DNA from: Chelativorans alearensis
GTDB lineage: Bacteria; Pseudomonadota; Alphaproteobacteria; Rhizobiales; Rhizobiaceae
Direction: 5' to 3'
DNA length: 64,000 nt
Assembly (NCBI RefSeq): GCF_010993735.1
Contig: NZ_WQNI01000013.1
Location: 310,001 to 374,000, forward strand
The position numbers were made by a program, and so were the translations under genes. The notes beneath the pieces are model-generated. The model was given only the letters and a program-made list of their open reading frames with translations. It made no database searches and was not told where the DNA came from. Positions within the stretch are counted from its first letter, which is position 1, and each line of letters starts with the position of its first letter. Of this stretch, positions 8,959-51,877 are shown in pieces.

Positions 8959-8981
8959 ACTGGCACCTTCCTCTTAAAGTT

Positions 8982-10312: not shown

Positions 10313-10353
10313 TCGGGCTTATTTGGTGTTCCCAATTGAGCTTAGACCTAGTG

Positions 10354-10373: not shown

Positions 10374-10462
10374 TGGGGAGGTTGTGTCTTGGGCTCGCAA
10401 ATCCGCTTAAATTCCGCGGCGAGTGGTGGGCGGATCGTTCCGATATCCCACAACCGGGAGTA

Positions 10463-35960: not shown

Positions 35961-36727
35961 CGGCTTGCCCCCTCCCAGCCGAGCAGCGCGACAGCTTCGC
36001 CTGTCGTCACGATCCTGCAGTTCTTCGCTGCATAGGCGACCAGATGCTCGAATGTCCCCGGCGTGCAGCCGAACCGGGTCGGCGTATCGGCGATGTCGTG
36101 CGTGAAGAAGATCAGCCATCCAGGCGTTGCCGCCACGTCGTCCACCCACCGGGTCGCCGAGCGGGCATAGGCCTCGGGCTGCCGAATCTCCACGGCCTTG
36201 AGCATGAGATGATCGACCTTGCCGCGGTTGATGGCCTCGCCCGCTCCCCTGCACGTGAGATAACGCGCGCGAAGCGCCGGTCTCGCCAAGGGCCAGGCTG
36301 CGTTGTAGGGAAACGCGAAATTGCGGATCGGCGGCTCGACCCCGGCCGCCGACAGGTAGGCAGCGTTTTTTTCCAGGTCCGCCTCCAGGCCGGCGCCCAG
36401 GGAGCGGACCTTGCGATGCGCGAAGGTGTGGCAACCGATCTCGTGCCCGCGCGTCGAGAGCTCGCGGCAGCCCTCTCTCGATATCAGCGTGCGATCGCGT
36501 TCCACGCGCGAGGCGATGCCGCCGGCCACATAGAAGGTGCCCCGGGCACCATGCCGCTCCAAGATTGCCGCGCCGTTGGTCAAGGCCGTCTCCGGCACGT
36601 CGTCGAACGTGAAGGTGACCAGGGGCACGTCCGTCAGCACCTCCCGCTCCTCCTCCGCCGTCCTCCAGACGAGACGATTGACGGCGCGGTCGATCAGTTC
36701 ATCGGCTTTCCTCGCAAGACCCCACAC
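35957..36727 (-). CDS. Polysaccharide deacetylase, NodB-like
   Basis: 256-residue carbohydrate esterase 4-type enzyme. The NodB motif 1 TFTFDDVPE supplies the catalytic Asp pair, and GCHTFAHRKV the metal-binding His pair (H-x3-H). C-terminal HDI motif is present in FFTHDIADTP. No signal peptide, so it would act in the cytoplasm or on lipid-linked sugar at the inner face. Start is GTG 36727, five bases after the ligase stop, with weak ribosome binding. Removes N-acetyl groups from sugar residues by inference. Confidence 0.87.
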   Translation of the reverse strand: MWGLARKADELIDRAVNRLVWRTAEEEREVLTDVPLVTFTFDDVPETALTNGAAILERHGARGTFYVAGGIASRVERDRTLISREGCRELSTRGHEIGCHTFAHRKVRSLGAGLEADLEKNAAYLSAAGVEPPIRNFAFPYNAAWPLARPALRARYLTCRGAGEAINRGKVDHLMLKAVEIRQPEAYARSATRWVDDVAATPGWLIFFTHDIADTPTRFGCTPGTFEHLVAYAAKNCRIVTTGEAVALLGWEGASR

Positions 36728-36731
36728 ACCC

Positions 36732-38048
36732 CTACCCCACTAGTCTTCTCGGCGAATGGACGATTTGGGCAGAAGATTGGTAACGGAATCCATAAAGCGC
36801 CAGTAAAAAGGTGAACCAGAGCGGGTTTCCCCCCTCGTAAAATAGGCTTTCGAGACCGGCGTTGAACAGAGTGTAGAGCCAGATGCGTGTGTAGAGCCGG
36901 GTCAAGGGCGAACGCTGTTCCTCCGGCTTTATGCGCGAAATGTCGCGAAGGGGGAGGAAAACGATCCAAATCAGCGTCAGCACGAGCCCCGGCACCCCCG
37001 TCATGAGGGTGATGTCGAGGTAGGAGTTGTGCCCGTTGGCGGCGGCCACGGCCCAGGTTTCTATCGTGCCGCCGCTGTAGACCAGCTCCTCGGTCTGCCA
37101 GAACGCCTTGAACCCGTGCCCCAGGATGGGGCTATCGGCAATTGCCGAAAAGGCGAACCGCCAGATATCGGCGCGGTTGGTAAAGGTTGCGTCGATGCCG
37201 AGTTTCGTGAGCAATTCGCCAAAGGGCTCGATGACCGCCGAGCCGACGGCCAGCAGGTTGAACAGGGCGATGCCTCCGACGGCGATGGGCACCCGCAGGA
37301 AGCGGAACCGCTCGAATGCCCACGCAAGGACGATGATCGCCGGCAGCATCGCACTGGATGTCTTGCCCCCCGTATTGAACAGGAAGAACGCCGCCAGCAC
37401 CGTAATGACGGCACCTCCGACGCGCGACCACGCGCGCATGACGAAGAGGCCGAAGAAGGTGGAGACGACCATTGCCGCGGCGGCGCTGTTTTTGTGCGGG
37501 AAATGCCCGCGCCACAATCCGGCGTTCATCGGTTCACGCAGTTCGGACGCCTGGTGAATGGCGAGCGTCGGCTTGAAGATGATCCCGAAATAGGAGAGCG
37601 CCAGCACCGCCATTGTGCCGAACGCGATCATTTTGGCGAAGTGGCGCTCCGACGCTGGAATGAGCAGGTAAATGCTCGCATTCACAGTGACGAGGACTGC
37701 CAGCACGACGCCCTTGACGCCCAGCATCGGGTGGCTGGAGATCATGGAGACGAACAGGATCCAGCAGAAAAGCGGCACCAGCAGCGCAAGCGGCTGGAAT
37801 ACCGCGCCGCGCAGCGGATGCAGCATTCCGAAAAGCAGGATGACGCTGAACAGCCCGAGGAAGACAAGCTGGTTGAGGCGGTTCGAATTGCCCGCAGAAG
37901 GGTCGAGAGCCGCCTCGCCCGTCAAGTCCACGAACGGGTTCAGCGAGATCCAGAGGAAGAAGAACAGCGCCATGAACAGCACCGTGCGTGCCGCCGTCTG
38001 AAGCCCGCCCACCGGCAGATCGACGGCCGTCAGTTGCGCCGACTGCAT
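36732..38048 (-). CDS. O-antigen ligase/Wzy-type polymerase
   Basis: 438 residues from ATG 38048 (GTG 38051 also possible; AAGGAG serves both). About ten to twelve membrane spans and a large periplasmic loop with GHGFKAFW and GHNSYLDITLMTGVPGL, the conserved region of the WaaL/Wzy/ExoQ family. Such proteins polymerise or ligate lipid-linked sugar repeats in the periplasm. ExoQ-like exopolysaccharide polymerase is most likely given the chain-length protein encoded just upstream. Confidence 0.87.
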   Translation of the reverse strand: MQSAQLTAVDLPVGGLQTAARTVLFMALFFFLWISLNPFVDLTGEAALDPSAGNSNRLNQLVFLGLFSVILLFGMLHPLRGAVFQPLALLVPLFCWILFVSMISSHPMLGVKGVVLAVLVTVNASIYLLIPASERHFAKMIAFGTMAVLALSYFGIIFKPTLAIHQASELREPMNAGLWRGHFPHKNSAAAAMVVSTFFGLFVMRAWSRVGGAVITVLAAFFLFNTGGKTSSAMLPAIIVLAWAFERFRFLRVPIAVGGIALFNLLAVGSAVIEPFGELLTKLGIDATFTNRADIWRFAFSAIADSPILGHGFKAFWQTEELVYSGGTIETWAVAAANGHNSYLDITLMTGVPGLVLTLIWIVFLPLRDISRIKPEEQRSPLTRLYTRIWLYTLFNAGLESLFYEGGNPLWFTFLLALYGFRYQSSAQIVHSPRRLVG

Positions 38049-38061: not shown

Positions 38062-39633
38062 TCACACGGCGCGGCTTTGCGACTCGCGAAGATATCCGAA
38101 CAAGCCGAGCGTCAGGGCGGCGAAGAGGCCCAGCACGAGCCCTGCGAAAGCGCCGGCTGCAAGCAGTATCATCGTGCGAGGCGGCCAGCTTCGTGATTTG
38201 GGCGGCACGGCGCGCGAAATCACCCGGATATTGCTGGTGTCGATCTGCTGACGCTCCGTTATCTGCTGACTGCGCGAGAGGTAGGTCTCGTAGAGTGCGG
38301 CCTTCGCCCGGGCATCGCGCTCCAGTTCGCGCAAGGCCACCTGAGCGCTGCTGTCAACGAAGACCTTCGCCTCTTCATCCCGCGTCTTCAGGCGCAACTC
38401 CTCGGCTACCGTGCGAGCCTGCTCGGCGTCGATTCTCGCGGCTTCGACGATGCGCTGTGCTTCGGCCGAGATCGCACGCTGCACGGAGGAAATCTCGGTC
38501 CTGATCGCCTGCAGGCGTGGATGCCTGTCGAGGTAGACCAGCGCGAGCGCCCCCAACTGTTGCTGCAGACGGTCATGCTGCGCGCGCAGATCGATGAGCG
38601 TTTCCGACTGGAATACAGAGGAGGCGGTAGTGCGCTGCTCTTCAAGCGCCTGCCGCAATTGGCGGTAGCGCATTTCGAGCTGGATTTGACGTTCCTGGGC
38701 TTCGAGCACCTGATCGTTCAGTTCGCCGGAAAGGCGCATGCTGACGAGTTCGCCGTCGTTTGACTGCAACCCACTTTCGCGCTTGAACGCCTCCACGCGG
38801 GCCTCCGCCTCGGTGACGTTGGCGCGCAGCTCATCCAGCCGCTCGCTGATGCTTGCAGCCACGCGCCCCGCACTCCCGGCCGCAGTTTCGAACACCTCGG
38901 TCTCGAAGGCGTCGACGATGGCGTCGGAAAGGGCGACCGACTTCATCGGGTCTTCCGTCCACACGCTTAGGACGACCACGTAGGAGCGCTCCTCCCTGCG
39001 CGCTTCCACGCGCTCCGAAAGCGCGCGCAACACCGCCAGTTGCCGATCTTCGGAAGTGGGTCCGCTGGAGATCAGCCGCTTCAGGGGGGCCAGCCAGTCA
39101 GGTTTCACGAACTCGGGGTCTTCGGTGAGGTTCAGATCGCTGATGACGCGGTTCAGCACATTGCGCGAGGTGAGGACCCTCAGCTTGCTTTCTACCTCAA
39201 GCAGTTGCGTGTCGCGCTGCGGATTGTTGGCGAACACGTCGTCGGTGACCACCTGCAGATTGGCCGGGTCCACCACGATATCGGTATAGACCGTGTAGCG
39301 CGGCGATGCGGTGATGGCGTAGGCGAAAGCCGCCGCCACGCAAAGAAGCACCAAGGAAACGATCAGGACCTTTCCGCGGTCGAGCCAGAAGAGAACGTCG
39401 TCCGGGGAGATCCCGCGCAGCTTTTCCAGATAATCGGCCACGTTCCCGCGCACGGGTGGTGCCGGTGCAAGGGCCGGTTCCGCCTCTCGCGCCGGTGCAG
39501 CGGCAGGTTCTGCTTCCTCCGTCGCGGGCGGGGTGGAAAGCAGGTTGAGAAGTGAGCCCCGCGCATGGAGGTTTTCGGCTCGGTTCCGGGCCGGCTTGGC
39601 GGGTTCGCGACGCGGTTCAGCTACTTCATACAT
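38062..39633 (-). CDS. Wzz/GumC-type polysaccharide chain-length protein
   Basis: 523 residues. Pro/Ala-rich cytoplasmic N-terminus of about 80 residues, membrane span 1 (VLIVSLVLLCVAAAFAYAI), a long periplasmic coiled-coil region (many Glu/Gln/Arg heptads), and span 2 (MILLAAGAFAGLVLGLFAAL) close to the C-terminus. The tyrosine-kinase domain of full-length ExoP/Wzc is absent: no Walker motifs follow span 2. Controls polymer length with the polymerase encoded next. First gene of the leftward unit ending at 31791. Confidence 0.9.
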   Translation of the reverse strand: MYEVAEPRREPAKPARNRAENLHARGSLLNLLSTPPATEEAEPAAAPAREAEPALAPAPPVRGNVADYLEKLRGISPDDVLFWLDRGKVLIVSLVLLCVAAAFAYAITASPRYTVYTDIVVDPANLQVVTDDVFANNPQRDTQLLEVESKLRVLTSRNVLNRVISDLNLTEDPEFVKPDWLAPLKRLISSGPTSEDRQLAVLRALSERVEARREERSYVVVLSVWTEDPMKSVALSDAIVDAFETEVFETAAGSAGRVAASISERLDELRANVTEAEARVEAFKRESGLQSNDGELVSMRLSGELNDQVLEAQERQIQLEMRYRQLRQALEEQRTTASSVFQSETLIDLRAQHDRLQQQLGALALVYLDRHPRLQAIRTEISSVQRAISAEAQRIVEAARIDAEQARTVAEELRLKTRDEEAKVFVDSSAQVALRELERDARAKAALYETYLSRSQQITERQQIDTSNIRVISRAVPPKSRSWPPRTMILLAAGAFAGLVLGLFAALTLGLFGYLRESQSRAV

Positions 39634-39760: not shown

Positions 39761-40936
39761 TCAGAACGCGACGAGCAGATTGCTCCAGCTTTCCGATGCA
39801 AGCCCGCCGATGTACATGTCGCCAGAGAGGGCCGCGTCCACAATCTCGGAATGGCGGCTGACCATGCAGAAATAGCCCGAGTGCCTGAATGTGAGTTGTC
39901 GCTGCCGCATAATCGCCTTCATGAGGAAGGGCTGGGCCATGCCCCTTGCATCGCAATACCCTTCGGCATCGAAAAAGGCGCACACCTGCTCGACAACCTC
40001 CTGCTCCCTTCCTTGCGGGCAAATGAGGTTGAGCACGCGGGCGATGCCGTTTGCTTCGCCGAAATAGAGCACGAAGCCCGCCGTCTCGCCCTTCGGGTCG
40101 AGAACCTTGCGGCAGCTCAGCGTACCGCAGGTGATGTTCTGCCTCGCCAACCCGATAAGCCAGGAGAATTCTCCGGCCGACCATGCGGGCCGCAGGTAAA
40201 AACGCTTGAGCACGGTGTCCGCGTATTCCCTGAACTCCTCGTAACCTGCCGGTTCCACGCGATATCCGGGGGCGGCTGCCGGCTTGAAGGAGGGCAACAG
40301 CCACCGTGCCAACCGGTCGAGCGGGAGGGCAACGATACGCAACGGGAGCTTCCGCAAAGCCGGAACGGCGACGAAGAGCCGCTGGAGAGAGCTCGTGAAC
40401 GGGCGGAAGACACGCCGCCACTCCAGGCTCTGTATAGGCAATATGTTCCCGCCGCCAGCTTCCCAGTGATCGGCGCTGCGCGGCGAGGCATTGTCGGAGA
40501 AGCAGAAATCCTGGTGCTTTGCCCGAAACGTTCTCGCCAGATGGGCCGCGCCTAGGGCGCCGGACTTGCCTTTTGCCATGAAGGCGCAAAGGAGCCTTGC
40601 CGTGAGCGTTCCTTCACCCACCCGCAACTGCATGGGAACGGACAGGACGGCACTGTCGATCTCCCCTTCGGCATTCTCATGGACGATACTTCCGTTTTCC
40701 GGCGTGTAGAGGGGGCTGGAGAAGGTTACCGTTTCCAGATAGCGGTTGAGCTCCTGGCTTCCCTCCGCCTCGTTTTTCCTGAAGATGCAGTTGAACAGCT
40801 TGGCGACGGCGGCGATGTCGCCTCTCTCCATCGGGCGCACGCGTCCCCGCCGCCGTGCGGCGATCGGATCAGCCGCCATGTCCTTGCTGTCTGGCGCGAC
40901 CATGACGCCGATATCATGCATCTCGATGGGCTTCAT
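39761..40936 (-). CDS. GNAT-like acyltransferase, paralogue 1
   Basis: 391 residues from ATG 40936, with GGGAGG upstream; overlaps the flippase stop (ATGA). N-terminal GNAT-like half (VRPMERGDIAAVAKLFNCIF) and a C-terminal half (FYLRPAWSAGEFSWLIG; GFVLYFGEANGIARVLNLIC) suggest a double acyltransferase fold. It is clearly paralogous to the protein at 43149-44264: CFSDNASPRSADHWE...SLEWRRVFRPF matches FSETASEVSANMWT...SLDWVRVIRPF. Probably transfers an acyl or aminoacyl group to the polysaccharide or its precursor; substrate unknown. The open frame continues to 41680 antisense to the flippase and is not coding there. Confidence 0.75.
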   Translation of the reverse strand: MKPIEMHDIGVMVAPDSKDMAADPIAARRRGRVRPMERGDIAAVAKLFNCIFRKNEAEGSQELNRYLETVTFSSPLYTPENGSIVHENAEGEIDSAVLSVPMQLRVGEGTLTARLLCAFMAKGKSGALGAAHLARTFRAKHQDFCFSDNASPRSADHWEAGGGNILPIQSLEWRRVFRPFTSSLQRLFVAVPALRKLPLRIVALPLDRLARWLLPSFKPAAAPGYRVEPAGYEEFREYADTVLKRFYLRPAWSAGEFSWLIGLARQNITCGTLSCRKVLDPKGETAGFVLYFGEANGIARVLNLICPQGREQEVVEQVCAFFDAEGYCDARGMAQPFLMKAIMRQRQLTFRHSGYFCMVSRHSEIVDAALSGDMYIGGLASESWSNLLVAF

Positions 40937-42246
40937 GGCCGTGCCTCCCTCAGAAGACTTGCTTCGGCCGCCGAACCCTTGCTCTTGCGGATGACGTGCA
41001 CGAGGACGAGCCACGACGCCACCACCATTGCGAACTCGACGACATAGAGGGAAACGATCGTGCCTGTCGGCGGTGCATACCAGCTGGCCCAGGCAGTCAA
41101 GACAGCGCCGAAGAGACTGCCGAGCGCCATCACGGTGCCGCGATAGGCGTGATTGCCGGATGCGCCCAGCGCCTCCACCGCAACCGACCAGATCGCAAGC
41201 AATATGACGATCCAGCACATCTGGCGCACGAAGGAGACGAGCGAAACGTAGTCGTGACCGAACAGATAAGGCAAGAGCGGCGCGATGATGAACACGGCAA
41301 TGGCGGCGGCGACGGAGATCACAGTCGCGGCGGCAAGAACCTTTTTGACCCGCTCGGCCATGTGGTGCAGTCCCTCCGCGCTGGCTCTTGCCGAGCCGGG
41401 ATAGATGAGCCGGTTGAGCGCCTCGACAGAGAGATAGCTGCTTTCCAGCATCCTGCGGGCTACGCTGTAGCTCGACACGATCTCGGCGGTCGAAACGAGG
41501 CTCAGGACCAGAAGATCGACGTTCTGACGGGCGGCCCGGAGGATGAAGGGAACGCTGAAGTAGATCCCGTTCATGATCTCCTCCCGCACGATCCTGAATT
41601 CGGGCCGACCCAGCCGCATGAGCAGGCGAAAGCACACGAGCGCGACCAGGACATGGCAGACGAACTGCCAGACCGCCCATTCTCCCGTCGTCGACACACC
41701 AAGTATGACGCAGGCCAATACAGCGGCCACTGTCCTTGCAACCGCGAAGCCGACGACCACCATGTTGGCCGTGCCGAACTCGCTGCGTCCGATGAATATC
41801 TGCTCCGTCAGCACAATCAGCCGGACGAGCACGATATTCGTGATCAGCATGGCCACGATGAAAAGGAGATTGAGGACCGGATTGTCTGAAAGCTTGAACA
41901 GGAAGGGGAGCACGACCGCCCCTGCAGCCACCAGGATCACTCCGCTGATGCCCGTCAGGATAAGATTATGGCCAAGCATGACGGGATAGGTGGAAGGGTC
42001 TCGCGCCACCCGCCGTACCAGAGTTTCCATGGCGCCGAGCCCGCACAGATGCAGCGCGACGCTGCAGATGGCGGTGATCGCCACGAACAGGCTGAACTCA
42101 TCGACGCCAAGCCATCGGGCGAGGATTGCGAACGTCACCAACTGTGCGGCGGAGCTGATGAGAAGGCTGCCGCTCGACGCTACGTAGGTGATGAGTGTCG
42201 CAAGGAGGGACCTGAAGTCGCCTGTGATGTGCTTGCCCCTGAACAT
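40933..42246 (-). CDS. Lipopolysaccharide/exopolysaccharide flippase, Wzx/MATE type
   Basis: 437 residues from ATG 42246 (a TTG lies just before it). Twelve or so predicted membrane spans, with the polysaccharide-synthesis MVF/Wzx-like layout: ISSAAQLVTFAILARWLGVDEF in the first span region. It would flip lipid-linked repeat units to the periplasm for the polymerase. Overlaps the GNAT-like gene downstream. Divergent from the methyltransferase gene, with a 198-base control region 42250-42447. Confidence 0.88.
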   Translation of the reverse strand: MFRGKHITGDFRSLLATLITYVASSGSLLISSAAQLVTFAILARWLGVDEFSLFVAITAICSVALHLCGLGAMETLVRRVARDPSTYPVMLGHNLILTGISGVILVAAGAVVLPFLFKLSDNPVLNLLFIVAMLITNIVLVRLIVLTEQIFIGRSEFGTANMVVVGFAVARTVAAVLACVILGVSTTGEWAVWQFVCHVLVALVCFRLLMRLGRPEFRIVREEIMNGIYFSVPFILRAARQNVDLLVLSLVSTAEIVSSYSVARRMLESSYLSVEALNRLIYPGSARASAEGLHHMAERVKKVLAAATVISVAAAIAVFIIAPLLPYLFGHDYVSLVSFVRQMCWIVILLAIWSVAVEALGASGNHAYRGTVMALGSLFGAVLTAWASWYAPPTGTIVSLYVVEFAMVVASWLVLVHVIRKSKGSAAEASLLREARP

Positions 42247-42447: not shown

Positions 42448-43152
42448 ATGGCGAAGCAAGAAGTGATCGAAGCAAATCCTGGAGAAAGGCCGCCGTTGGC
42501 ACGGTCGGTGCGTTTCATGGGCATCGAGTTGGAGACGGCTCCCGGCGTTCTGGTGCCGCGTGAAGAGACGGAGCTTCTGGGCCGCAGCACGGTTGCACTG
42601 CTGCGGGAGGTACCCGGTGAAGCCATCGTGATCGACATGTGCTGCGGCTCGGGCAACTTGGCGCTGGCCATCGCTGCGGCGGTCCCGACGGCAAGGGTCT
42701 GGGCATCCGACCTTACCGACGACACGGTGGCTCTTGCCAGACGAAATGTGGAGCGCTGCGGCCTCGCCGGCGCTGTCAAGGTTATGCAGGGCGACCTTTT
42801 CTCCGGGCTCCAGAATGAGGGACTGGAGGGGAGGGCCGATCTCGTTGTTTGCAACCCTCCCTATATCTCGACCCTTCGCCTGGAAGGCGACCGCTCCGCT
42901 CTGCTCGAGGACGAGCCGAGGGAGGCCTTCGATGGGGGGCCTTATGGTCTCTCGATACACCAGCGCCTCGTGCGCGAAGCCGCGGCCTTTCTCAAGCCCG
43001 GCGGATGGCTCGCTTTCGAATTCGGTGAAGGGCAAGACCGCCAGGTCAAGATCCTCCTCGCGCGGGCCGGTTTCTACGAGCCGGTCCGCTTTGCCTTGGA
43101 CGCCGCTGGCACGCCGCGTGTCGCAATCGCACGCAAGAAGCATGAGCAATGA
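42448..43152 (+). CDS. PrmC/HemK-like SAM-dependent methyltransferase, short form
   Basis: 234 residues. SAM-binding VIDMCCGSGNLALAIAA (motif I with GSGN) and the NPPYIS catalytic motif of N5-glutamine or N6-adenine type methyltransferases. PRE-E before it (LVPREETELLG) also matches PrmC. The N-terminal helical domain that PrmC uses to bind release factors is missing; only ~20 residues precede the region. So a different substrate, such as a carrier-bound or small-molecule amide, is possible. Overlaps the next gene by 4 bases. Confidence 0.8.
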   Translation: MAKQEVIEANPGERPPLARSVRFMGIELETAPGVLVPREETELLGRSTVALLREVPGEAIVIDMCCGSGNLALAIAAAVPTARVWASDLTDDTVALARRNVERCGLAGAVKVMQGDLFSGLQNEGLEGRADLVVCNPPYISTLRLEGDRSALLEDEPREAFDGGPYGLSIHQRLVREAAAFLKPGGWLAFEFGEGQDRQVKILLARAGFYEPVRFALDAAGTPRVAIARKKHEQ

Positions 43153-44264
43153 CAGCCGTTCGGCCACTAAGGGAGAACGACATCCCGGCCGTCACCGGGC
43201 TCTTTCAGCGTATCTTCAGGGATCGACACCGGCGCCCGCCCGAAGCGCTCGCCGTCTATCTGCGGCGGCTTTACCTGGAATTTCCGGGGCACGACCCTGA
43301 GATCGCCTCGCTCGTGCACCTGAGGGAGGATGGCAGCATTTCAGGCTTCATCGGCGTGACGACGCTGCCAATGTCGTTTGAAGGCCGGCCACTGCGCGCG
43401 GCCGTCTGCGGCTCGCTTATGGTGGAAGATCGCGAGAGCGACCCCATGGCGGGCGCGCGGCTGCTGAAAGCATTCCTCGCCGGACCGCAGGACGTCTCCT
43501 TCAGCGAGACGGCGAGCGAGGTGTCGGCAAATATGTGGACGCGGCTGCGCGGCGTGCAGCTGCCGCAATACAGTCTCGACTGGGTCCGCGTGATCCGGCC
43601 CTTTTCCTTCCTCGCGCAAGCGGCTTCCGGGAAGGTCCGTGCCCTGCGGACGCTGTCGCCGCTGGCGAGCATGATGGACACGCTCGCTCGCCGACGCATG
43701 ACGACGGATGCCTTGCGGTGGTCCGGCATCCCGGAAAACTGGAAGGGTGCGGGCGCCCGCAGCGCGGTTGAAATCACCAGGGACAACTTCGCCGAACTGG
43801 TTGCGCCATTCACCGCCCACTTCTCCCTCCGGCCGGAATGGGCGCCGGGGCAGCTTAAGCAAGTCCTGGCCGACGCGCAAAGCAAGGAGGAATACGGGCC
43901 TGCCAGGTTCTGCAAAGTCATTTCGCGAACGGGCAGGACGATTGGCGGCTTTTTCTATCACGGCGGACCGGGCCGGATCGGCCGCGTGCTGCAGCTGCTT
44001 GCCCTTCCCGGCCAGGCGGACGCCGTGATCGACGCCATGTTCGCCCACGCCGCCGAGCAGGGTCTCGCCGGCCTGCGCGGCCGCACCCAGCCGGCCCTCC
44101 TGGAAGCCATGCTCGGACGACGCGTCGCCTTCACGCATCTAGCCTCGACCGTCGTGCATGCGCGCGATGCCGGGATCGTCCATGGACTCCAAGAGGGCAA
44201 AGGGTTCCTAAACGGCATTGCCGGCGAACATTGGAGCCGGCTGATCGGTGGCCGGTTCGATTGA
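43149..44264 (+). CDS. GNAT-like acyltransferase, paralogue 2
   Basis: 371 residues; ATG 43149 overlaps the methyltransferase stop. VRPLRENDIPAVTGLFQRIFRDR is a GNAT start, quoted in outline, followed by FIGVTTLPMSF and a C-terminal second GNAT-like half (HFSLRPEWAPGQLKQVL; GFFYHGGPGRIGRVLQLLAL). Paralogous to the gene at 39761-40936, though on the other strand and about 3.2 kb away. Convergent with the NadE-like gene, 12 bases apart. Predicted tailoring acyltransferase; no substrate can be named. Confidence 0.75.
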   Translation: MTAVRPLRENDIPAVTGLFQRIFRDRHRRPPEALAVYLRRLYLEFPGHDPEIASLVHLREDGSISGFIGVTTLPMSFEGRPLRAAVCGSLMVEDRESDPMAGARLLKAFLAGPQDVSFSETASEVSANMWTRLRGVQLPQYSLDWVRVIRPFSFLAQAASGKVRALRTLSPLASMMDTLARRRMTTDALRWSGIPENWKGAGARSAVEITRDNFAELVAPFTAHFSLRPEWAPGQLKQVLADAQSKEEYGPARFCKVISRTGRTIGGFFYHGGPGRIGRVLQLLALPGQADAVIDAMFAHAAEQGLAGLRGRTQPALLEAMLGRRVAFTHLASTVVHARDAGIVHGLQEGKGFLNGIAGEHWSRLIGGRFD

Positions 44265-44276
44265 CGCCAAGTCTCT

Positions 44277-45287
44277 TCAGGCGATTTCAGCTACGGTCTC
44301 GACCAGTTGAGGCCCGAGGTGGAGATAGCGGGTCGCCTTGCGCTTGGTCGCGATATCGGCCCACACACGCTGGACCTGTTCCTCGGTGAGCGCCGCCGCT
44401 GCCGCAACGGCGGATGCCGGCATGCCATGGTTGAGGCCGTAAAGGCACAGGTCCATCCGGTCGTAGGGGAGCGAGAAGTAGAACTCCTCCTGTGTCTGCT
44501 GTAGCGAGTAGGTATCCGTCGTCGGTGGCCTACGTCGGATCTCTTCCGGCACGCCAAGATATGCGGCAAGCTCATAGACCTGCGACTTGTAGAGATGGGC
44601 GATCGGCTTCACGTCGGCAGCTCCATCGCCGTTCTTGACGAAGAAGCCCTGGTCGTATTCGAGCCGGTTGGGCGTGCCGATGACAGCGAAGTTCAGCCTG
44701 TCGGCGTGGTAGTATTCGATCTGTTTGCGGGTGCGCTGCTTCATGTTTGTCGCGGCCACGATCCCCAGATAGACCTCCGGCGTCATCCGCAGCTTCGTCT
44801 GCCTTCCTTCGGGATCCTGCACCACCAGGAAGGAGATGTTGTAGCCGTCCCCTTCCAGCGCGTTGGCGATGACGATCTTCGACGCCCAGCCGGGGCCGTA
44901 GTTGGGAACGAGCTGGCGAATGAAACTGTCGCGCCGCTCGTAGCAGCCCATCGCCTGAAGGCTCGGGCCGATATCCTCCACAATGCTGTCATCGACGCCG
45001 AAGGTACGGGCGACCTGCCGGCCGAGCGACAGGCTCTCCGGATCGGAATCGTTTTCCGGCATGAAGACGCAGAGAACGTTCTTTGCGCCCGCCGCCCGGA
45101 CCGCAAGCGCGGTGCACACGCTCGAATCTACGCCCCCCGACACGCCCAGCACGAGGCCGCGCTTGCGCAGCGAGCGCAGCTGGGCCCTGAGCGCGGCTAC
45201 GATCCGCTCCGTCTCGGCGGCAGGATCGACGGCGAGCGCTGTGGACGAAAAGGAAGCGGCGGCGTCTTGAACGGAATGGTGTGTCAT
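44277..45287 (-). CDS. NAD synthetase-like, ammonia-dependent ATP-pyrophosphatase enzyme
   Basis: 336 residues from ATG 45287, overlapping the ligase stop (ATGA). The PP-loop SGGVDSS is at residues 50-56 and the second half KNGDGAADVKPIAHLYKSQVYELA matches NadE. Differences: GTPNRLE (204-210) replaces the usual GTxNKSE, PPTTDTY (254-260) replaces the PxADL-type end, and an extra ~50 residues (about 105-165) follow the PP-loop half. Length exceeds the usual ~275 of ammonia-dependent NadE. It sits in a biosynthetic operon, so it may adenylate and amidate a pathway acid rather than make NAD. A genuine housekeeping role is not excluded. Confidence 0.8.
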   Translation of the reverse strand: MTHHSVQDAAASFSSTALAVDPAAETERIVAALRAQLRSLRKRGLVLGVSGGVDSSVCTALAVRAAGAKNVLCVFMPENDSDPESLSLGRQVARTFGVDDSIVEDIGPSLQAMGCYERRDSFIRQLVPNYGPGWASKIVIANALEGDGYNISFLVVQDPEGRQTKLRMTPEVYLGIVAATNMKQRTRKQIEYYHADRLNFAVIGTPNRLEYDQGFFVKNGDGAADVKPIAHLYKSQVYELAAYLGVPEEIRRRPPTTDTYSLQQTQEEFYFSLPYDRMDLCLYGLNHGMPASAVAAAAALTEEQVQRVWADIATKRKATRYLHLGPQLVETVAEIA

Positions 45288-46828
45288 TCGGCTGGCTCTA
45301 TCGTTTCGGCCGCAAGCCTGCGGCTGACCTTGCCCGTGTCCGTCTTCGGCAGCTCGCTGACGAACCGCACGAGTTTCGGGACCATGAAGTCTTCCAGATG
45401 GCGGGTGCAATGGCGGATGACGTCGCGCTCGGAAAGTGCCGGGTCGGTCGAGACGACCATTGCTGCGATGGCATGGCCCAGCACCGGATCGGCCACCCCC
45501 GTCACCACGGCTTCGGCGATCGACGGATGGGCGTGAAGGACCGCCTCCACTTCCTTGGGTGCCACCTTCTCGCCGCGCGTCTTGATGATGTCGTCCTTGC
45601 GGCCGACGAAATAGAGGAAGCCGTCGGCGTCGGTGCGGAAGAGGTCTCCGGTGTAGAGCACCTTCTCCCACGGATTGAGGCCCGGCCGCAGCATCCTGGC
45701 CGTCGCCTCCTCGTTGCGCCAGTAGCCCTGCATGACGTGTGGGCCACGGATCACCAATTCCCCCACCGTTCCGGAGGGGACGGGCCTGCCGTCCTCGCCC
45801 ACCACGAAAGCTTCGGTATTCGGGATCGCGATGCCGACCGAGTCCGGCCGGTGGTCAAGCTCCTCCGGCGGCAGATAGGTGCAACGCTTGCATTCGGTGA
45901 GCCCGTACATGGAATAGAGCTCGACACCCGGGCACAGCTCGCGCAGCCGGGCGATATGAGGCGGCGGCAGGGCGGCGGCGGTGTTGGAAAAGTAGCGCAG
46001 GCTCGGCAGGAAACCGGGCTGGAGGTCGCGCATCTGCAGGATCATCGCTGCCATGGTGGGGACCAGCGGAAAGCCGGTCACCTTTTCCTTGCGCATCAGT
46101 TCGAAGATCGCCTGAGGGAAAGCGAAGGACTTCTCCAGCACCAGTGTGGCGCCGAGCTTGACCGACATCAGGAGCTGATAGAGCCCGTAGTCGAAGGCGA
46201 GCGGCAGGGCGTTCAGGATGATGTCTTCCCGCGTGTTGCGCAGGTAGGTGGTAATGGATGTGGCGGCCGCCTCCACGTTGCGGTGCGTCATCATCACGCC
46301 CTTGGGGCGGCCGGTCGAGCCGGAGGTATAGATGAGCATGGCAAGATCGACATCGATGCCGCCATGCGAGGCGGGAACGGGCTGGGTCGTCAGGGCCTCT
46401 GCGAAGGAGAGGGGGCCTTCCGGCACTGCCTCCCCGGGCCTCTGCGTGGAGACGAGAACGAACGGTCGGCCGCAAAGCGCGCGCGCCTCGGCGGCGACCG
46501 GCAGGAGCTTGGCCTGCGTCAGCACCGCCGCAGCCTCGCAATCCCCTGCCACATAGGCAAGTTTCTCGGCCTTGGTGGAAGCGTTGATCGGGCTGAAGGT
46601 GGCACCGGCTTTCAGCACGGCGAAGATGGAGACCGCCGCCTCCCAGGAATTGTCCATGAAGACCAGGACGCGGTCGTTGCGGCGCACGCCGCTCGACGCC
46701 AACGCTGCCGCCAACCGGTCGGACAGCGCATCCAACTCGTTATAGGAAAGCCGCCGGGAGCCGCAGATCAGAGCCGTCTTGGCTCCATCGGCCAAGGCGC
46801 TGCGTTTCAGGAACTCTTCGACACGCAT
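45284..46828 (-). CDS. AMP-forming acyl ligase
   Basis: 514-residue ANL-family enzyme. YTSGSTGRPKG (residues 167-177) binds ATP phosphates, YGLTECKRCTYL is the A5 region, YTGDLFRTD the A7, and Lys in PKTDTGKVSRR near the C-terminus is the adenylation catalytic Lys. ATG 46828 has GGAG 7 bases upstream. Its ACP partner is encoded 22 bases upstream, so it probably loads an acyl or amino-acyl group on that carrier rather than CoA. Resembles the ligases of exosortase-A-associated polysaccharide loci. Confidence 0.88.
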   Translation of the reverse strand: MRVEEFLKRSALADGAKTALICGSRRLSYNELDALSDRLAAALASSGVRRNDRVLVFMDNSWEAAVSIFAVLKAGATFSPINASTKAEKLAYVAGDCEAAAVLTQAKLLPVAAEARALCGRPFVLVSTQRPGEAVPEGPLSFAEALTTQPVPASHGGIDVDLAMLIYTSGSTGRPKGVMMTHRNVEAAATSITTYLRNTREDIILNALPLAFDYGLYQLLMSVKLGATLVLEKSFAFPQAIFELMRKEKVTGFPLVPTMAAMILQMRDLQPGFLPSLRYFSNTAAALPPPHIARLRELCPGVELYSMYGLTECKRCTYLPPEELDHRPDSVGIAIPNTEAFVVGEDGRPVPSGTVGELVIRGPHVMQGYWRNEEATARMLRPGLNPWEKVLYTGDLFRTDADGFLYFVGRKDDIIKTRGEKVAPKEVEAVLHAHPSIAEAVVTGVADPVLGHAIAAMVVSTDPALSERDVIRHCTRHLEDFMVPKLVRFVSELPKTDTGKVSRRLAAETIEPAE

Positions 46829-46850
46829 ACCGGATCTCCAGCCTCCCCGC

Positions 46851-47123
46851 TCATGCGGACAGAGACGCCTCCGCGCCCACTCTGGCGCTGACGAAAGCAA
46901 CGATCCGGTCGAGCGAATCGAGATTCGCTGGAACGATGTCAGCATCGGCCATGGTCAGCCCGAACTGCTCTTCGATGAAAGCGACGAGCTCCAGCACGCC
47001 GGTGGAATCGATGATGTCGTTCTCGATGAGCGATGCGTCTTCTTCGAGTGCGAAGGACGTGTCACCAAACAAGAAATTCTCGACGATGAACGCATGCACG
47101 CTGTCCTTGATGTTGTTCGTCAT
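46851..47123 (-). CDS. Acyl carrier protein
   Basis: 90 residues from ATG 47123; AAGGAG six bases upstream rules out the ATG at 47129. Acidic helical protein with Ser40 in ENDIIDSTGVLELV, the site for 4'-phosphopantetheine. A dedicated carrier, distinct from fatty-acid AcpP in sequence (DST instead of DSL). It lies between asnB-type and ligase genes and would hold the intermediate on which they act. Confidence 0.92.
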   Translation of the reverse strand: MTNNIKDSVHAFIVENFLFGDTSFALEEDASLIENDIIDSTGVLELVAFIEEQFGLTMADADIVPANLDSLDRIVAFVSARVGAEASLSA

Positions 47124-47141
47124 TCCCATCTCCTTACAAGC

Positions 47142-49088
47142 TTACGCGGCCTCCGAGGCCCGGAAGTGCGAACCCGTGAATGTCTCAAGCCAGAGCTGAG
47201 ACGAAAGAATGCCGACGAAGGCGGCGTTGTCGCGAAAGCCGGTGAGCGGCTGCTGGCGGCTTTTCGCGAAGAGCTTTGACACGGAGGCCGGATTGAAGAG
47301 GCCGCCGGCGGCAAGCTTCTCCGCGCTCATGGCCTCGCGGACGTAATCCTTCTCGCCTGCCCCCCTGAAAGACTGGCTGTCGGGCGCGCGGTAAGGCTGC
47401 TTGGTCCGCCGTAGGATCGTTTCCGGCAGGAGGCTTTTGCTCGCCTCGCGCAAGATATGCTTTTCGACCAGCCGCTTCAGCTTCATCTCCGGCGGAAGTG
47501 TTGCGGCAAATTCGACCAATCGGTGGTCGAGGAAGGGAAAGCGCCCCTCGATGCCGTGCGCCATCGCCATGCGATCGCCCTGGCTCGAAAGAATGTAGCC
47601 CGGCAGGAGGAATCGCGATTCCAGATACTGCGCCTGGTGCAGCGGATGCCAGCGGCCGAACTCCGCCGGCAGCCGCGATGCCAATTCCTCCGCCGCGTCG
47701 TAGCCGGAAAGGGTCTCACGCAGATCCGCGGAGAAGAACAGCTTTGCCGCCCCGGTCGCCCGAAACCGGGGATTGTGGGAGAACAGAGGATCGTCTGGCG
47801 AATCCGCGCCTGCACCGAAGAAGGCGGCCAGATATTCCGCCGACTGCTGCTTGAGGCCCGGCAGGTAGGGGTAGAGCTTGCGGAAGAGGTGGGGCCGGAT
47901 GCGCGAGCCCGGCTGGCGCGCGCAGAAGCGGCGCACCCGCGCCTCCTTGAAAAGGTCGTAACCGGCGAACACCTCATCCGCCCCCTCGCCCGTCAGCACG
48001 ACTTTCAGGCCCTTCTCGCGAACGAGGGCGGAGAGCTTGAAAAGCGGCGCGGGCGCGGTCCGCAGGATCGGCCGCTCCGCAAAGCGGACAACCTCGGGGA
48101 AGACGGCGGCGATGTCGTCATCCCGGCACTGGACGGAACTGTGCATCGTCCCGAGGGCGGCGGCCATCTCCTTCTGAAAGGCGCTCTCGTCATGCTCCTC
48201 GCTGTCGAAGGCGACCGAAAAGGTACGCAGCACCTCCGACGTCATGCCCGCCGCCAGCGCAGAGACAATCGAGGAATCGAGACCGCCCGAAAGGTAGGAG
48301 CCCACCGGTACATCGGCCCGCATGCGCAGACGCGTGGCGTCCGCAAGCAGCGCGCGTAACTCCGCGGCCGCAGCGTTCTCGTCCGTGTGGCGGCTGCGCG
48401 AACCATGATCGGGAAAGGCAAGTGACCAATAAGGCCTTACCGTTTGCTTGTCTTGTTCGACAATCATCATGCTTGCCGGTTCGAGCTCATGGATATCCTT
48501 GAAGGGGGTGCGCGATGCAATGGGTGCCCATAGAGTGAAAATCTGGTCGAGTGCGACCGGATCCATTTCCGCTTCGACACCTGGCACGTGCAAAAGCGCC
48601 TTCGCCTCCGATGCGAAGAAGAGCGTGTTTCGGACGGTCGTGTAGAACAGCGGGCGCACGCCCATCCGGTCGCGGGCAAGGAACATGCGCCGGCGCTGCG
48701 CATCCCAGATGGCGAAGGCGAAATCTCCATTGAGATCGGCGAGGCAGTCTGGCCCCTTCTCGTCGTAAAGATGCAGGATGACTTCGGTGTCGCTGGAGGT
48801 GTGGAGGACCCTGCCGCGCGAGCGGAGCGCCTCACGCAACTCGACGTAGTTGAAGATTTCTCCGTTAAAGGCGATGGACAGCCGACCGTGCCCGATGGAC
48901 ATGGGCTGCTGGCCATCCGAGAGGCCGACGATCGACAGACGCGTGTGACAAAGGCCCGCGTTCGCGAAAGCGGCCACACCGCTTTCGTCGGGACCGCGGT
49001 GCGCAACGGCAGAGGCCATCCGCTCAAGCAGCGGCTTCGCCTCAGCCGGCGCTACGCCGGAGCCGAAATATCCACCAAAGCCGCACAA
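47142..49088 (-). CDS. Asparagine synthase-type glutamine amidotransferase
   Basis: 648 residues if started at TTG 49088. That start makes the protein begin Met-Cys-Gly-Phe, placing the essential glutaminase nucleophile Cys at position 2; an ATG 33 bases upstream would bury it. Glutaminase marks: HRGPDESG and NGEIFNY; synthetase PP-loop SGGLDSS at residues 267-273; GEGADEVFAGY later. In polysaccharide loci such enzymes turn uronic acids into uronamides or amidate carrier-bound acids. First gene of the operon with ACP, ligase and NadE-like genes. Confidence 0.9.
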   Translation of the reverse strand: MCGFGGYFGSGVAPAEAKPLLERMASAVAHRGPDESGVAAFANAGLCHTRLSIVGLSDGQQPMSIGHGRLSIAFNGEIFNYVELREALRSRGRVLHTSSDTEVILHLYDEKGPDCLADLNGDFAFAIWDAQRRRMFLARDRMGVRPLFYTTVRNTLFFASEAKALLHVPGVEAEMDPVALDQIFTLWAPIASRTPFKDIHELEPASMMIVEQDKQTVRPYWSLAFPDHGSRSRHTDENAAAAELRALLADATRLRMRADVPVGSYLSGGLDSSIVSALAAGMTSEVLRTFSVAFDSEEHDESAFQKEMAAALGTMHSSVQCRDDDIAAVFPEVVRFAERPILRTAPAPLFKLSALVREKGLKVVLTGEGADEVFAGYDLFKEARVRRFCARQPGSRIRPHLFRKLYPYLPGLKQQSAEYLAAFFGAGADSPDDPLFSHNPRFRATGAAKLFFSADLRETLSGYDAAEELASRLPAEFGRWHPLHQAQYLESRFLLPGYILSSQGDRMAMAHGIEGRFPFLDHRLVEFAATLPPEMKLKRLVEKHILREASKSLLPETILRRTKQPYRAPDSQSFRGAGEKDYVREAMSAEKLAAGGLFNPASVSKLFAKSRQQPLTGFRDNAAFVGILSSQLWLETFTGSHFRASEAA

Positions 49089-49290
49089 ACCTCTGCCCCC
49101 AACATCGTCCGATGCATGCAATACCGCCGCACACCTTAATAATTGGATATTTCTTCACATGGCCTGCCGAACTCGGCGGGGGTTACCGGGAGTATCGTGG
49201 AGGAAGGCTTAGCCTATTCGCTAAAATGGAAAGCATTCTCAATTTCGCTTGTCGGCTCTCCAACTCCTTGGCCGGACGCCGGGCGAAGGG

Positions 49291-50775
49291 CTAGGTGCCG
49301 GAGATTTCGCGCCCAAGGCGAACGGTTTCCCGGACAAGGAGAAGGAGATCATCGCGCCGCGTCCGATGATTGGCGATTGCCACTCTCAGGCAATGCTCGT
49401 CGTGCACTGTCGTGTCCGAGAGCGCGGCCGTGCCTTGCTCCTGCAACCGCAGCATGATCTCGATGTTGAGCGCTTTCAGAGCCTCGCCATCTACACCCCC
49501 TGGCACTCCTGCTGGGCGAAAGCGATAGCACACGATGTTGATGCTCGTCGGTGCAACCAGCTCAAGAAGGGGCTCGTTCTCGATCAATTGGCTGAGATAG
49601 GCGCCCTGAGCGACGTTCTGGTCGATGAGCCGGCCGAACGTGTCCGCGCCATGCTCCTTGAGTGCCATCCAGACTTTCAGCGAGCGGAAACCACGAGTGG
49701 TCTGCAGGCCGTAGTCGTGCAGCCACGGGGCCGATGCGAGGCCGCGCGGCGTCGGTTCGAGGTATTCCGGCGCGACCGCGAAGGTGCCGCGGTGGGCGGC
49801 CGCGTCCCGTATCAGGGCGCAGCCGACCTCGAACGGCGCATGCAGCCACTTGTGCGGATCAAGCGCTACGGAATGGGCATGTTCGATCCCGGCGACACGG
49901 TGGGCGTTCTTCGGAGCGATGGCAAGCAGGGCGCCGATGCAGCCGTCGACATGGAGCCAGATATCCTCTTCCCCCGCCAGCTTCGCCAAGGCCTGAAGAT
50001 CGTCGATGGCGCCGGTATTTACCGTCCCGGCTGTTGCGATCACGCAGGCGGGACGGAATCCGGCCGCGCGATCCTCCGCAATCGCGGCGCGCAGCGCGGC
50101 AACGTCGATGCGCAGTTCGCCGTCCGTCGCGATGCGCCGCAGGGCCCGGTTTCCCATCCCGAGCGCTTCCACGGCCTTGCGGTGGCAGCTGTGAATTTGA
50201 TCCGAGCCGTAGAAGCGTAAGGGGTTTTCGATGGCTGCGACGCCATGTTCCCGTACATCGACGCCAGCCTTCACGTTGCGCGCCACGGTCAGCCCGATGA
50301 GGTTCGCTATCGAACCGCCGCTGACCAGCGTGCCACTGGCGGAAGCCGGAAAGCCGATCATCTCCTTGCACCAGTTCACCACCTGGCCGTCCAAAAACGC
50401 GGCGGCGTGGTTGCCGCCGCCGAGATTGGAGCCTTGGACCGCCGCCAGGAGGTCTGCCAGCGCCCCGGTGAAGTTGCCCGATCCCATATACCAGGACCAA
50501 AAGCGCGGATGAACATTGCCCATCGGATAGGGCATCACGTTCTCCGCGACCTCGCGGTAGACCTCGGCGAGCGGCGCTGGCGAGCGTGGCAGGGGTGCAT
50601 CGAAGAAGGCCCTCACCTCCGCAGGCACCTCCCGCCACACCGGCCGATCGCGGACATCACGCAGATAGGCGATGGAATCGTCGATGATCCGGCGCGAGAG
50701 CGAACGTATGCTGCTCCAGTCGTCTGGATCGAGCGTCTCTTCCACCTCGCGCAGGGCGTTCTGCATATCGTTCAC
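49291..50775 (-). CDS. Group II PLP-dependent amino acid decarboxylase
   Basis: 494 residues from GTG 50775, with AAGGAG five bases upstream. Related to aromatic-L-amino-acid, glutamate and cysteine-sulfinate decarboxylases: the PLP Lys is 309 in DPHKWLH, Asp277 (HVDGCIG) contacts the pyridine nitrogen, and His in SCHRKA stacks on the ring. Starts 16 bases after the cysK-type gene and is probably co-transcribed with it. Substrate is not predictable from motifs; the pairing hints at a cysteine- or O-acetylserine-derived amino acid. Confidence 0.88.
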   Translation of the reverse strand: MNDMQNALREVEETLDPDDWSSIRSLSRRIIDDSIAYLRDVRDRPVWREVPAEVRAFFDAPLPRSPAPLAEVYREVAENVMPYPMGNVHPRFWSWYMGSGNFTGALADLLAAVQGSNLGGGNHAAAFLDGQVVNWCKEMIGFPASASGTLVSGGSIANLIGLTVARNVKAGVDVREHGVAAIENPLRFYGSDQIHSCHRKAVEALGMGNRALRRIATDGELRIDVAALRAAIAEDRAAGFRPACVIATAGTVNTGAIDDLQALAKLAGEEDIWLHVDGCIGALLAIAPKNAHRVAGIEHAHSVALDPHKWLHAPFEVGCALIRDAAAHRGTFAVAPEYLEPTPRGLASAPWLHDYGLQTTRGFRSLKVWMALKEHGADTFGRLIDQNVAQGAYLSQLIENEPLLELVAPTSINIVCYRFRPAGVPGGVDGEALKALNIEIMLRLQEQGTAALSDTTVHDEHCLRVAIANHRTRRDDLLLLVRETVRLGREISGT

Positions 50776-50791
50776 GGGGGCTCCTTGCCGC

Positions 50792-51877
50792 TCAGGCGGC
50801 GAATTGAAAGCCTGGCGTGGAGCGCGAGAGCGCCATCTCCTCCTCATCCATGTCTGCTTCGATAGCCTCGAAGAGCGGTGTCGTCATATACCGCTCGCCT
50901 GTATCCGGCAGCATGCAAAGGATGACGGAGCCGGTGGGCGCGCGTTCGGCGATCTGACGCGCCACGGCGAAGGTGGCCCCGCCGGAGATGCCGGTAAAGA
51001 TACCCTCTTTCTGAGCCAGCGCCTTGGCCCATTTGATGCCCTCGGGCCCGGCAATCGGCACGACCTCGTCATAGAAGCGGGAATCGATCGCTTCCTGCAG
51101 CACATGGGGGATGAAGTCGGGGGTCCAGCCCTGGATCGGGTGCGGCTCAAAGGCGGGGTGGCTGGCAGCCGGGGCACCGTCGGGCGAGCGCTTCTGCTCA
51201 TGGCCGCTGCCGACAAGCTGGGCGTTGGCCGGCTCGCTGAGCACGATCTTCGTTTCGGGCCTTTCCCGGCGCAGCACGCGCCCGACGCCGGCCACCGTGC
51301 CGCCGGTGCCGTAGCCGGTCACGAACCAGTCGAGCCTGGACCCGGCAAAGTCGTTGATAATCTCGCGCGCCGTGGTCGCTTCGTGGATGTCGGCATTGGC
51401 GTCGGTCTCGAACTGGCGCGCGAGGAACCAGCCATTGGCCTCGGCCAGCTCGACCGCCTTTCTGTACATGCCGAAGCCCTTTTCCGCACGCGGCGTCAGC
51501 ACGACCTTTGCACCCAGCATGCGCATCAGCTTACGGCGCTCTATGGAGAAGCTGTCGGCCATGGTGACCACGAGGGGGTAGCCCTTCTGCGCGCAGATCA
51601 TGGCGAGGCCGATCCCGGTATTGCCGCTGGTCGCCTCGACGACCGTCTGCCCCGGCTTCAGAGCCCCGGTACGCTCGGCCTCCTCGATGATGTTCAGGGC
51701 CAGCCGGTCCTTGACCGATCCGGCGGGATTGAAGAATTCCGCCTTCACATAAATGGTCGCGTGGTCGACGCTGAGATTGTTGATCCGGATCGTGGGCGTG
51801 TCGCCCACCGTGTCGAGAATGCTGCCGAAGAGACGGCCTCGGCCTGCCGTCGTACGTATCGTTGTTTGGATAGGCAT
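50792..51877 (-). CDS. cysK: Cysteine synthase-type PLP enzyme
   Basis: 361 residues; ATG 51877 with TAGGAGAT upstream. PLP Lys56 in NPAGSVKDR, TSGNTGIG and the GTGGTVAGVGRVLRRE phosphate-binding loop are all intact, as in O-acetylserine sulfhydrylase. A 20-residue N-terminal extension and an insert after LVGSGHEQKRSPDGA make it slightly long. Could be the cell's cysteine synthase or a specialised beta-replacement enzyme (for example cysteate- or diaminopropionate-forming) for the decarboxylase encoded downstream. Confidence 0.88.
   Translation of the reverse strand: MPIQTTIRTTAGRGRLFGSILDTVGDTPTIRINNLSVDHATIYVKAEFFNPAGSVKDRLALNIIEEAERTGALKPGQTVVEATSGNTGIGLAMICAQKGYPLVVTMADSFSIERRKLMRMLGAKVVLTPRAEKGFGMYRKAVELAEANGWFLARQFETDANADIHEATTAREIINDFAGSRLDWFVTGYGTGGTVAGVGRVLRRERPETKIVLSEPANAQLVGSGHEQKRSPDGAPAASHPAFEPHPIQGWTPDFIPHVLQEAIDSRFYDEVVPIAGPEGIKWAKALAQKEGIFTGISGGATFAVARQIAERAPTGSVILCMLPDTGERYMTTPLFEAIEADMDEEEMALSRSTPGFQFAA

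Follow-up and report, generated by a model that had tools for sequence, protein, structure and literature searches.

The described systems closest to the one examined here are the Wbp/Vim system of P. gingivalis and the N-acylation dependent on an acyl carrier protein (ACP) in Flavobacterium. Their logic resembles that predicted for a gene cluster of Chelativorans alearensis, which we analyzed within 64,000 nt of contig NZ_WQNI01000013.1 (positions 310,001-374,000; this whole stretch is called the window, and coordinates below are window positions). The cluster comprises a quartet of genes for an AsnB-type amidotransferase, an ACP, an AMP-forming ligase and a NadE-like enzyme, together with a PrmC-like methyltransferase gene and a gene for a tandem-GNAT protein (GNAT1), and it adjoins a polysaccharide operon; its predicted logic differs by the transferase family, the carrier-bound donor and the NadE-like partner. 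In the Wbp/Vim system, as set out in the available part of the paper (PMC7468200), the putative deacetylase VimE exposes an amine, the N-acetyltransferase-like, GNAT-class VimA adds serine or glycine, and the AsnB-type WbpS forms an amide on a surface glycan, with wzx nearby; enzymes of the same kinds are encoded in the window. VimA, however, matches TIGR03019/femAB, whereas GNAT1 and its paralog GNAT2 match no NCBIfam or Pfam family. Moreover, that part of the paper names no ligase, carrier or NadE-like gene, and nothing on the donor for GNAT-type transfer was found there; the terms "acyl carrier", "tRNA" and "donor" are absent from the main text.

The wfp genes for the O-polysaccharide of Flavobacterium psychrophilum (PMC6519341, available part) likewise include a dedicated carrier and an acyltransferase, which are predicted to place a special acyl group on a sugar amine (Qui4N N-acylation). 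In contrast to our locus, the acyl group is thought to arise from fatty-acid-synthase-like steps, the transferase is a PglD homolog, and AsnB, a NadE-like protein and an adenylating ligase go unmentioned in that part of the text. The holdfast system (PMC5362036) shares with the window the linkage of an HfsH-like deacetylase and tandem-GNAT proteins to polysaccharide genes; for its HfsK, a tandem GNAT that modifies the glycan, the available part of that paper calls the exact role unclear and leaves the acyl group open. Searches of open-licence literature gave no recognised description of the AsnB–carrier–ligase–NadE-like combination, which is weak evidence of absence, and nothing useful under the Sinorhizobium meliloti locus tags of the locus.

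XrtA/PEP-CTERM loci are a further point of comparison, since the ligase has TIGR03098 as its best curated relative and AsnB has TIGR03108 as its second best, but both proteins score below the cut-offs (462 of 592 and 442 of 817 bits, respectively). A preliminary description of this DNA had noted the lack of an exosortase, and PF09721 indeed gave 0 matches in the window's genome. One locus elsewhere (L216; L-, G- and C-numbers denote fetched loci, genomes, and contigs of the window's genome) has a complete quartet (4399-10402) beside an XrtA-type deacetylase (TIGR03006, 390 bits; cut-off 276), and its genome also had 0 PF09721 matches. The idea that quartets belong to exosortase loci was therefore rejected: PF09721 occurred in two of the four genomes checked, and the places listed were not near the quartet. 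Two matches to the exosortase family (202 and 85 bits) in the genome of L211 (G673:C1) lie megabases from its quartet at ~1.30 Mb.

The conserved core of the system is the AsnB–ACP–AMP ligase–NadE-like quartet plus GNAT1, often accompanied by a truncated PrmC-like gene. Searching 61 related genomes with GNAT1 gave matches in 11, nine of which carry a GNAT1-type protein (G000, G001, G002, G006, G008, G011, G014, G029 and G051), while two (G032 and G046) were assigned to GNAT2 by their best tblastn match and 50 had neither type. A NadE-like protein (E-value 1e-50 or better) was found in exactly the nine GNAT1-type genomes of these 61, the match in G014 being cut by a contig end. The chance of such an overlap would be 5.8e-11 if the genomes were independent, which they are not; since the loci are phylogenetically related, this probability is not exact.

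We also scanned named species with a GNAT1 profile (152 relatives, of which the best 80 loci were kept; the set is biased to close relatives, and two of the loci, L090 and L142, belong to one genome). The kept loci came from Ensifer/Sinorhizobium, Rhizobium/Pararhizobium, Mesorhizobium, Bosea, Aminobacter, Nitratireductor, Pseudaminobacter and others, with C. xinjiangense (94% identity in GNAT1) and C. salis (88%) as the nearest named relatives. Each locus was read up to 10 kb on each side, genes being called with our own codon-based caller or as stop-to-stop frames, and genes were tallied with hidden Markov models (HMMs) built from the window and its relatives, which hence favor this system. 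The quartet was complete in the genomes of all 80 loci, within the fetched locus in 70 and elsewhere in the genome in 10 (the genome of L065 was read via G001, which has the same coordinates, and L142 is a second GNAT1 copy in the genome already counted under L090). Accessory genes were less constant: PrmC-like genes were present in 56 of the 80 loci, co-polymerase in 47, flippase and Wzy in 44 each, and GNAT2 and deacetylase in 43 each. GNAT2, flippase, PrmC-like gene and GNAT1 occurred all together in 43 loci, linking the system to glycan genes. In four genomes (G001, G008, G446 and G448; L251, L252, L260 and L261), the quartet stands at the far end of the same polysaccharide locus, and in Sinorhizobium/Ensifer it often lies ~2 to 14 kb from GNAT1, or on another contig (genomes of L096 and L141). 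On pSymB of S. meliloti 1021, a strain tractable in the laboratory, the glycan genes, both GNATs and the PrmC-like gene are followed ~10 kb on by the complete quartet. SMb21506, the title of whose reference says that it affects succinoglycan, is a tentative candidate for the co-polymerase of this locus from gene numbering alone.

A second survey started from the NadE-like protein. This subfamily is rare: it scored above the NF002048 cut-off in 3 of 385 alphaproteobacterial and 15 of 398 Pseudomonadota genomes, and a search of 297 genomes from the order found the protein in 20 at an E-value of 1e-60 or better, each count including the window's own genome; among 14 control genomes, only that of Methanosarcina acetivorans scored above the cut-off. 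We read 28 NadE-like neighborhoods other than the window's (L203-L227, L030, L143 and L144; their species may overlap the named set), and the quartet was complete in 26 of them, which indicates that the quartet, above any other grouping, is the unit. The combination thus recurs well beyond this strain, as the cross-genome comparison named beforehand in the preliminary description required. Within the set proposed there, AsnB, ACP, ligase, NadE-like protein and GNAT1 held together, and the pyridoxal phosphate (PLP) decarboxylase and CysK-type enzyme dropped out; of the paired GNATs, only GNAT1 tracks the quartet. GNAT2 follows the flippase, and two genomes (G032 and G046) have a GNAT2-type protein but no NadE-like gene. 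The methyltransferase gene behind the suggested methylation step is usual, yet optional rather than constant.

The quartet proteins keep conserved catalytic motifs. The carrier, which had no Pfam match, has a conserved DST motif; its best solved relatives are peptidyl carrier proteins (E-value 1e-9). Those of the ligase are adenylation domains of nonribosomal peptide synthetases (NRPSs). In 90 of 106 ligases, which include repeats of the same genome, the specificity pocket read DYYP[S/T]TMRCK in positions aligned by hand with LgrA. Asp at the first pocket position, which we take to bind the amino group on the basis of NRPS numbering and the hand-made alignment, was present in 92 of 106 ligases including that of the window, and the eighth position was Arg in every one of the 106. 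The former suggests an amino acid substrate, and the latter may indicate an acidic side chain. AsnB keeps its N-terminal Cys (MCG), and the NadE-like protein keeps the SGG.DSS loop and a GDGAAD motif. Stand-alone ligases charge a discrete carrier with an amino acid in DltA/DltC and in butirosin BtrI/BtrJ; here, AsnB and a NadE-like enzyme join such a pair, and a tandem GNAT or a thioesterase is presumed to unload the carrier. A carrier match to OlsHI of planctomycete ornithine lipids led no further; a Pfam scan of 20 window proteins gave nothing GH3-like.

What takes the product off the carrier appears to vary. In the 25 loci L203-L227, the presumed offloader was of GNAT1 type in 10, a thioesterase in 10 and a member of another GNAT-like family in three (L211, L214 and L215), and none was seen in two (L216 and L220). 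The thioesterases are of the PF00975 type, five being recognized by Pfam (L203, L204, L205, L212 and L225) and the other five by our own HMM or cluster; four of the ten (L203, L208, L210 and L227) are fused to an adenylation domain, the fusion proteins having 694-911 residues as called. Within these 25 loci, the PrmC-like gene was present in nine of the ten thioesterase loci versus none of the ten GNAT1-type loci. Such replacement of GNAT1 by a thioesterase or another GNAT-like protein would be expected of a product bound to the carrier as a thioester. The preliminary description had envisaged an acid built on a carrier, amidated, methylated and moved to a glycan by the GNATs; the co-occurrence fits this pathway, but the association of the quartet with thioesterases in place of a GNAT suggests a portable acyl-carrier module that is not specific to this polysaccharide.

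The transferase family was examined with AlphaFold2 models of GNAT1 (predicted local distance difference test score 88.7, predicted template modeling (TM) score 0.88) and GNAT2 (82.9 and 0.81, respectively). Both models are tandem GNATs, each chain having two GNAT domains, and align over ~350 columns with Eis2, 2hv2 and NMT chains. Foldseek TM scores were 0.48-0.58 for GNAT1 (Eis2, NMT and related tandem GNATs) and 0.46-0.52 for GNAT2 (NMT and 2hv2), and the matches listed comprised NMT, Eis2 and similar chains, with no FemX among the matches listed. GNAT1 and GNAT2 were rejected as detectable homologs of PF13480, the family to which HfsK presumably belongs, or of TIGR03019; here the locus differs from the holdfast system. 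None of 22 GNAT2 sequences had an NCBIfam match, TIGR03019 included. Between GNAT1 and the GNAT-like family of L211, L214 and L215, hhalign gave a weak relation restricted to the N-terminal part (E-values 4e-4 to 7e-4, probabilities 34% and 27%); of two such proteins scanned, one scored above the Pfam GNAT cut-off and one had no match.

Together, these results lead us to propose, at about even confidence, that the quartet is a dedicated donor pathway whose amidated acyl group is moved by GNAT1 to an amine of a polysaccharide precursor; the donor would be a thioester of an amidated acyl group, probably an aminoacyl one, on the dedicated carrier. We infer all substrates, the step order, the acceptor and the role of the two amide-forming enzymes from gene content, linkage, predicted folds and motifs. 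In this scheme, the ligase would adenylate a small carboxylic acid (an amino acid, or a diacid resembling one, is most likely) and load it onto the carrier, where AsnB would use ammonia from glutamine to convert a free carboxylate into a carboxamide. The NadE-like enzyme may form a second amide or assist, and the PrmC-like enzyme, where present, might N-methylate the amide. From the carrier, GNAT1 would then pass the acyl group to a sugar amine of the Wzx/Wzy polysaccharide precursor, possibly one freed by the HfsH-like deacetylase, while GNAT2 could carry out a further, separate acylation, perhaps with a plain acetyl group. A more specific version, which we think unlikely, is a tRNA-independent aminoacylation of glycans: an amino acid charged on the dedicated peptidyl carrier would have its side chain amidated by AsnB/NadE-like and N-methylated by a PrmC-derived enzyme, giving a group akin to N-methyl-glutamine or -asparagine, which the new tandem-GNAT family would pass to a deacetylated sugar amine; the thioesterase versions would release a product made from the same donor.

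Several observations count against the donor-pathway proposal. Two amide-forming enzymes are hard to fit on one small acyl group, and the structural matches of both GNATs are distant (TM scores 0.46-0.58, root-mean-square deviation up to 9 Å); a comparison of GNAT1 with ten PF13480-matching proteins detected no relation (hhalign probability 0.5%, E-value 0.13). Fourteen of the 106 ligases, among them those of L211, L214, L215 and L216, lack the pocket Asp, so that an amino acid substrate is not general. The two incomplete quartets were that of L209, without AsnB in the 19 kb read, and L144, a NadE-like gene alone at a contig end. In 33 of the 80 GNAT1 loci, no gene matching the window's polysaccharide proteins was found in the fetched stretch, a tally that misses other glycan families such as the GT2 enzyme of L167, and several GNAT1 loci are bare five-gene operons amid unrelated genes.

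The loci without window-type glycan genes, and the bare GNAT1–AsnB–ACP–ligase–NadE operons with mostly unrelated neighbors (Nitratireductor, Aminobacter, Pseudaminobacter and others), would also be expected if the five-gene unit made a small diffusible molecule, such as an acylated amino acid amide serving as an osmolyte or signal, the glycan genes being mere neighbors in some lineages. The thioesterase versions could release such a free product, and the distance between quartet and GNAT1 in Sinorhizobium/Ensifer points the same way. We nevertheless find this explanation doubtful: GNAT2, flippase, PrmC-like gene and GNAT1 stand together in more than half of the loci, the quartet closes the same glycan locus in four genomes, a flippase-like frame, judged by eye, adjoins GNAT1 in L218 and L221, and glycan genes are present in several thioesterase loci as well (L204, L208, L213 and L225). 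Another alternative, which we consider improbable, keeps the glycan but separates the activities, with AsnB and/or the NadE-like enzyme amidating the sugar itself (uronic acid to uronamide, as WbpS does) and the ligase, carrier and GNAT1 N-acylating the same sugar independently. The precedent lies in P. gingivalis, where, in the available part of the paper (PMC7468200), the AsnB-type WbpS makes the uronamide of a sugar thought to be deacetylated by VimE and aminoacylated by VimA, and a deacetylase, GNATs and AsnB are all present at our locus. However, AsnB and the NadE-like enzyme are tied to the carrier rather than to one sugar, for the quartet stays intact where a thioesterase is present and where window-type glycan genes are lacking; in addition, a scan of 20 window proteins, and not of the remaining genome, showed no recognised uronic-acid-forming enzyme.

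That AsnB and the NadE-like protein are ordinary metabolic enzymes that lie here by chance is scarcely tenable. AsnB does score above the TIGR01536 cut-off and the NadE-like protein above that of NF002048, a family named NAD(+) synthase, yet in 26 of the 28 neighborhoods AsnB, ligase and ACP accompany this subfamily, a linkage that already contradicts chance, and the subfamily is rare across the phylum. Housekeeping roles were likewise rejected on the separate copies in the window's genome, namely, an ordinary NadE candidate (C31), a second AsnB (C5:234959) and a full-length PrmC (C17, 279 bits). The PrmC-like protein is not a PrmC by its TIGR03534 match, which is below cut-off and spans profile positions 49-252 only.

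Three transcription units meet in the window (Table 1). The minus-strand polysaccharide operon extends from the flippase (42246) to the GT2 enzyme (31791), with GNAT2, co-polymerase, Wzy, deacetylase, two GT4 enzymes and the VanZ protein between them. The PrmC-like–GNAT1 pair (42448-44264, plus strand), whose two genes overlap by four bases, diverges from this operon and converges on the quartet (AsnB–ACP–ligase–NadE-like, 49088-44277, minus strand) with a gap of 12 bases; the last two quartet genes also overlap by four bases. The flippase, Wzy, co-polymerase and glycosyltransferases found together (PF01943, PF04932, PF02706, PF00534 and PF00535) make this a Wzx/Wzy-dependent polysaccharide locus. 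All genes in the preliminary description were found as described, and its list was right gene by gene, except that it overlooked the deacetylase; the flippase, polymerase, chain-length protein and second GNAT are present but lie just outside the interval that it named (42448-51877). The deacetylase falls short of the HfsH family (NF050820), which is nonetheless by far its best NCBIfam match (the next gave 30 bits); members of the deacetylase's family were present in 43 of 83 loci.

Table 1. Genes of the quartet, the PrmC-like–GNAT1 pair, the polysaccharide operon and the adjoining pair (window coordinates)
Feature	Coordinates	Strand	Evidence
AsnB-type glutamine amidotransferase, quartet gene 1	47142..49088	-	TTG start; MCGF with glutaminase Cys; TIGR01536 502 bits (cut-off 267)
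Carrier protein (ACP), quartet gene 2	46851..47123	-	Serine in IIDSTG motif; NF052616 52 bits, below cut-off 130
AMP-forming ligase/NRPS-like adenylation enzyme, quartet gene 3	45284..46828	-	PF00501 316 bits
NadE-like ATP-dependent, predicted amide-forming enzyme, quartet gene 4	44277..45287	-	NF002048 523 bits (cut-off 313)
GNAT1, predicted tandem-GNAT acyltransferase	43149..44264	+	Predicted fold; co-occurrence with quartet
PrmC-like methyltransferase without N-terminal domain, NPPY kept	42448..43152	+	TIGR03534 178 bits (cut-off 199); TIGR00536 147 bits (cut-off 115.5)
Wzx-type flippase	40933..42246	-	PF01943 49 bits
GNAT2, paralogous tandem-GNAT protein	39761..40936	-	4-base overlap with flippase; 30% identity to GNAT1
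Polysaccharide co-polymerase (Wzz/GumC type, chain-length protein)	38062..39633	-	PF02706, PF13807
Wzy-type polymerase	36732..38048	-	PF04932 51 bits
HfsH-like polysaccharide deacetylase	35957..36727	-	GTG start; PF01522 56 bits; NF050820 HfsH 155 bits, below cut-off 400
GT4 glycosyltransferase	34695..35960	-	PF00534 111 bits
GT4 glycosyltransferase	33294..34580	-	PF00534 91 bits
VanZ-like membrane protein	32812..33270	-	PF04892 32 bits
GT2 glycosyltransferase	31791..32789	-	PF00535 63 bits
PLP decarboxylase	49291..50766	-	PF00282; nearest diaminobutyrate decarboxylase, 194 of 900 bits
CysK-type enzyme	50792..51877	-	348 bits, just below TIGR01139 cut-off 351

The PLP decarboxylase and CysK-type enzyme were rejected as members of the system, since close homologs adjoin the quartet only in C. 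xinjiangense, the nearest relative; distant matches of the decarboxylase (29% and 27% identity) occur in L127, ~9 kb from GNAT1, and in L150. The two make up a separate pair beside the quartet and may constitute a small pathway of their own. Beyond CysK, a 166-codon open frame (51990-52490, minus strand), which by eye resembles a small secreted cupin, is followed by a 679-residue regulator with BTAD and TPR repeats (52640-54679); a few Mesorhizobium loci (L098, L099 and L126) encode a protein resembling the latter (28% identity) close to the quartet.

Individual loci showed further arrangements. In L209, where GNAT1-type, NadE-like, ligase and ACP genes are present, a PF01425 amidase (7656-9236) lies between GNAT1 and the NadE-like gene. 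The second GNAT1 copy of Ensifer sesbaniae (L142) has no quartet of its own nearby, whereas the first copy (L090) has one. In S. medicae pMl3 (L165) and S. meliloti Ak57 (L169, a record named pSymA), GNAT1 and the quartet are separated by genes for an L,D-transpeptidase, an EAL-domain protein and a two-component system and by minCDE, the EAL gene being a hint that cyclic di-GMP controls the polysaccharide. The ligase frame of the Ak57 record is in two pieces, perhaps through a sequencing error. On pMESCI01 of Mesorhizobium ciceri (L167), the PrmC-like–GNAT1–quartet genes adjoin a GT2 enzyme, a HEAT-repeat protein, a YaiO-type outer membrane barrel and response regulators, which is not a Wzx/Wzy set.

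Carrier-dependent acylation of surface glycans is already known; what would be new here is the unusual, putative amide-forming donor module and the unnamed transferase family. The quartet is present in many bacteria of soil and plants, scattered over Pseudomonadota, where annotations call its genes "NAD(+) synthase" and "asparagine synthase", that is, housekeeping enzymes. If the donor-pathway proposal is true, the module would supply GNAT-type glycan modification with a concrete candidate for the donor, which the available part of the HfsK paper (PMC5362036) leaves open, and it would explain the ligase/carrier/AsnB sets of other glycan loci.

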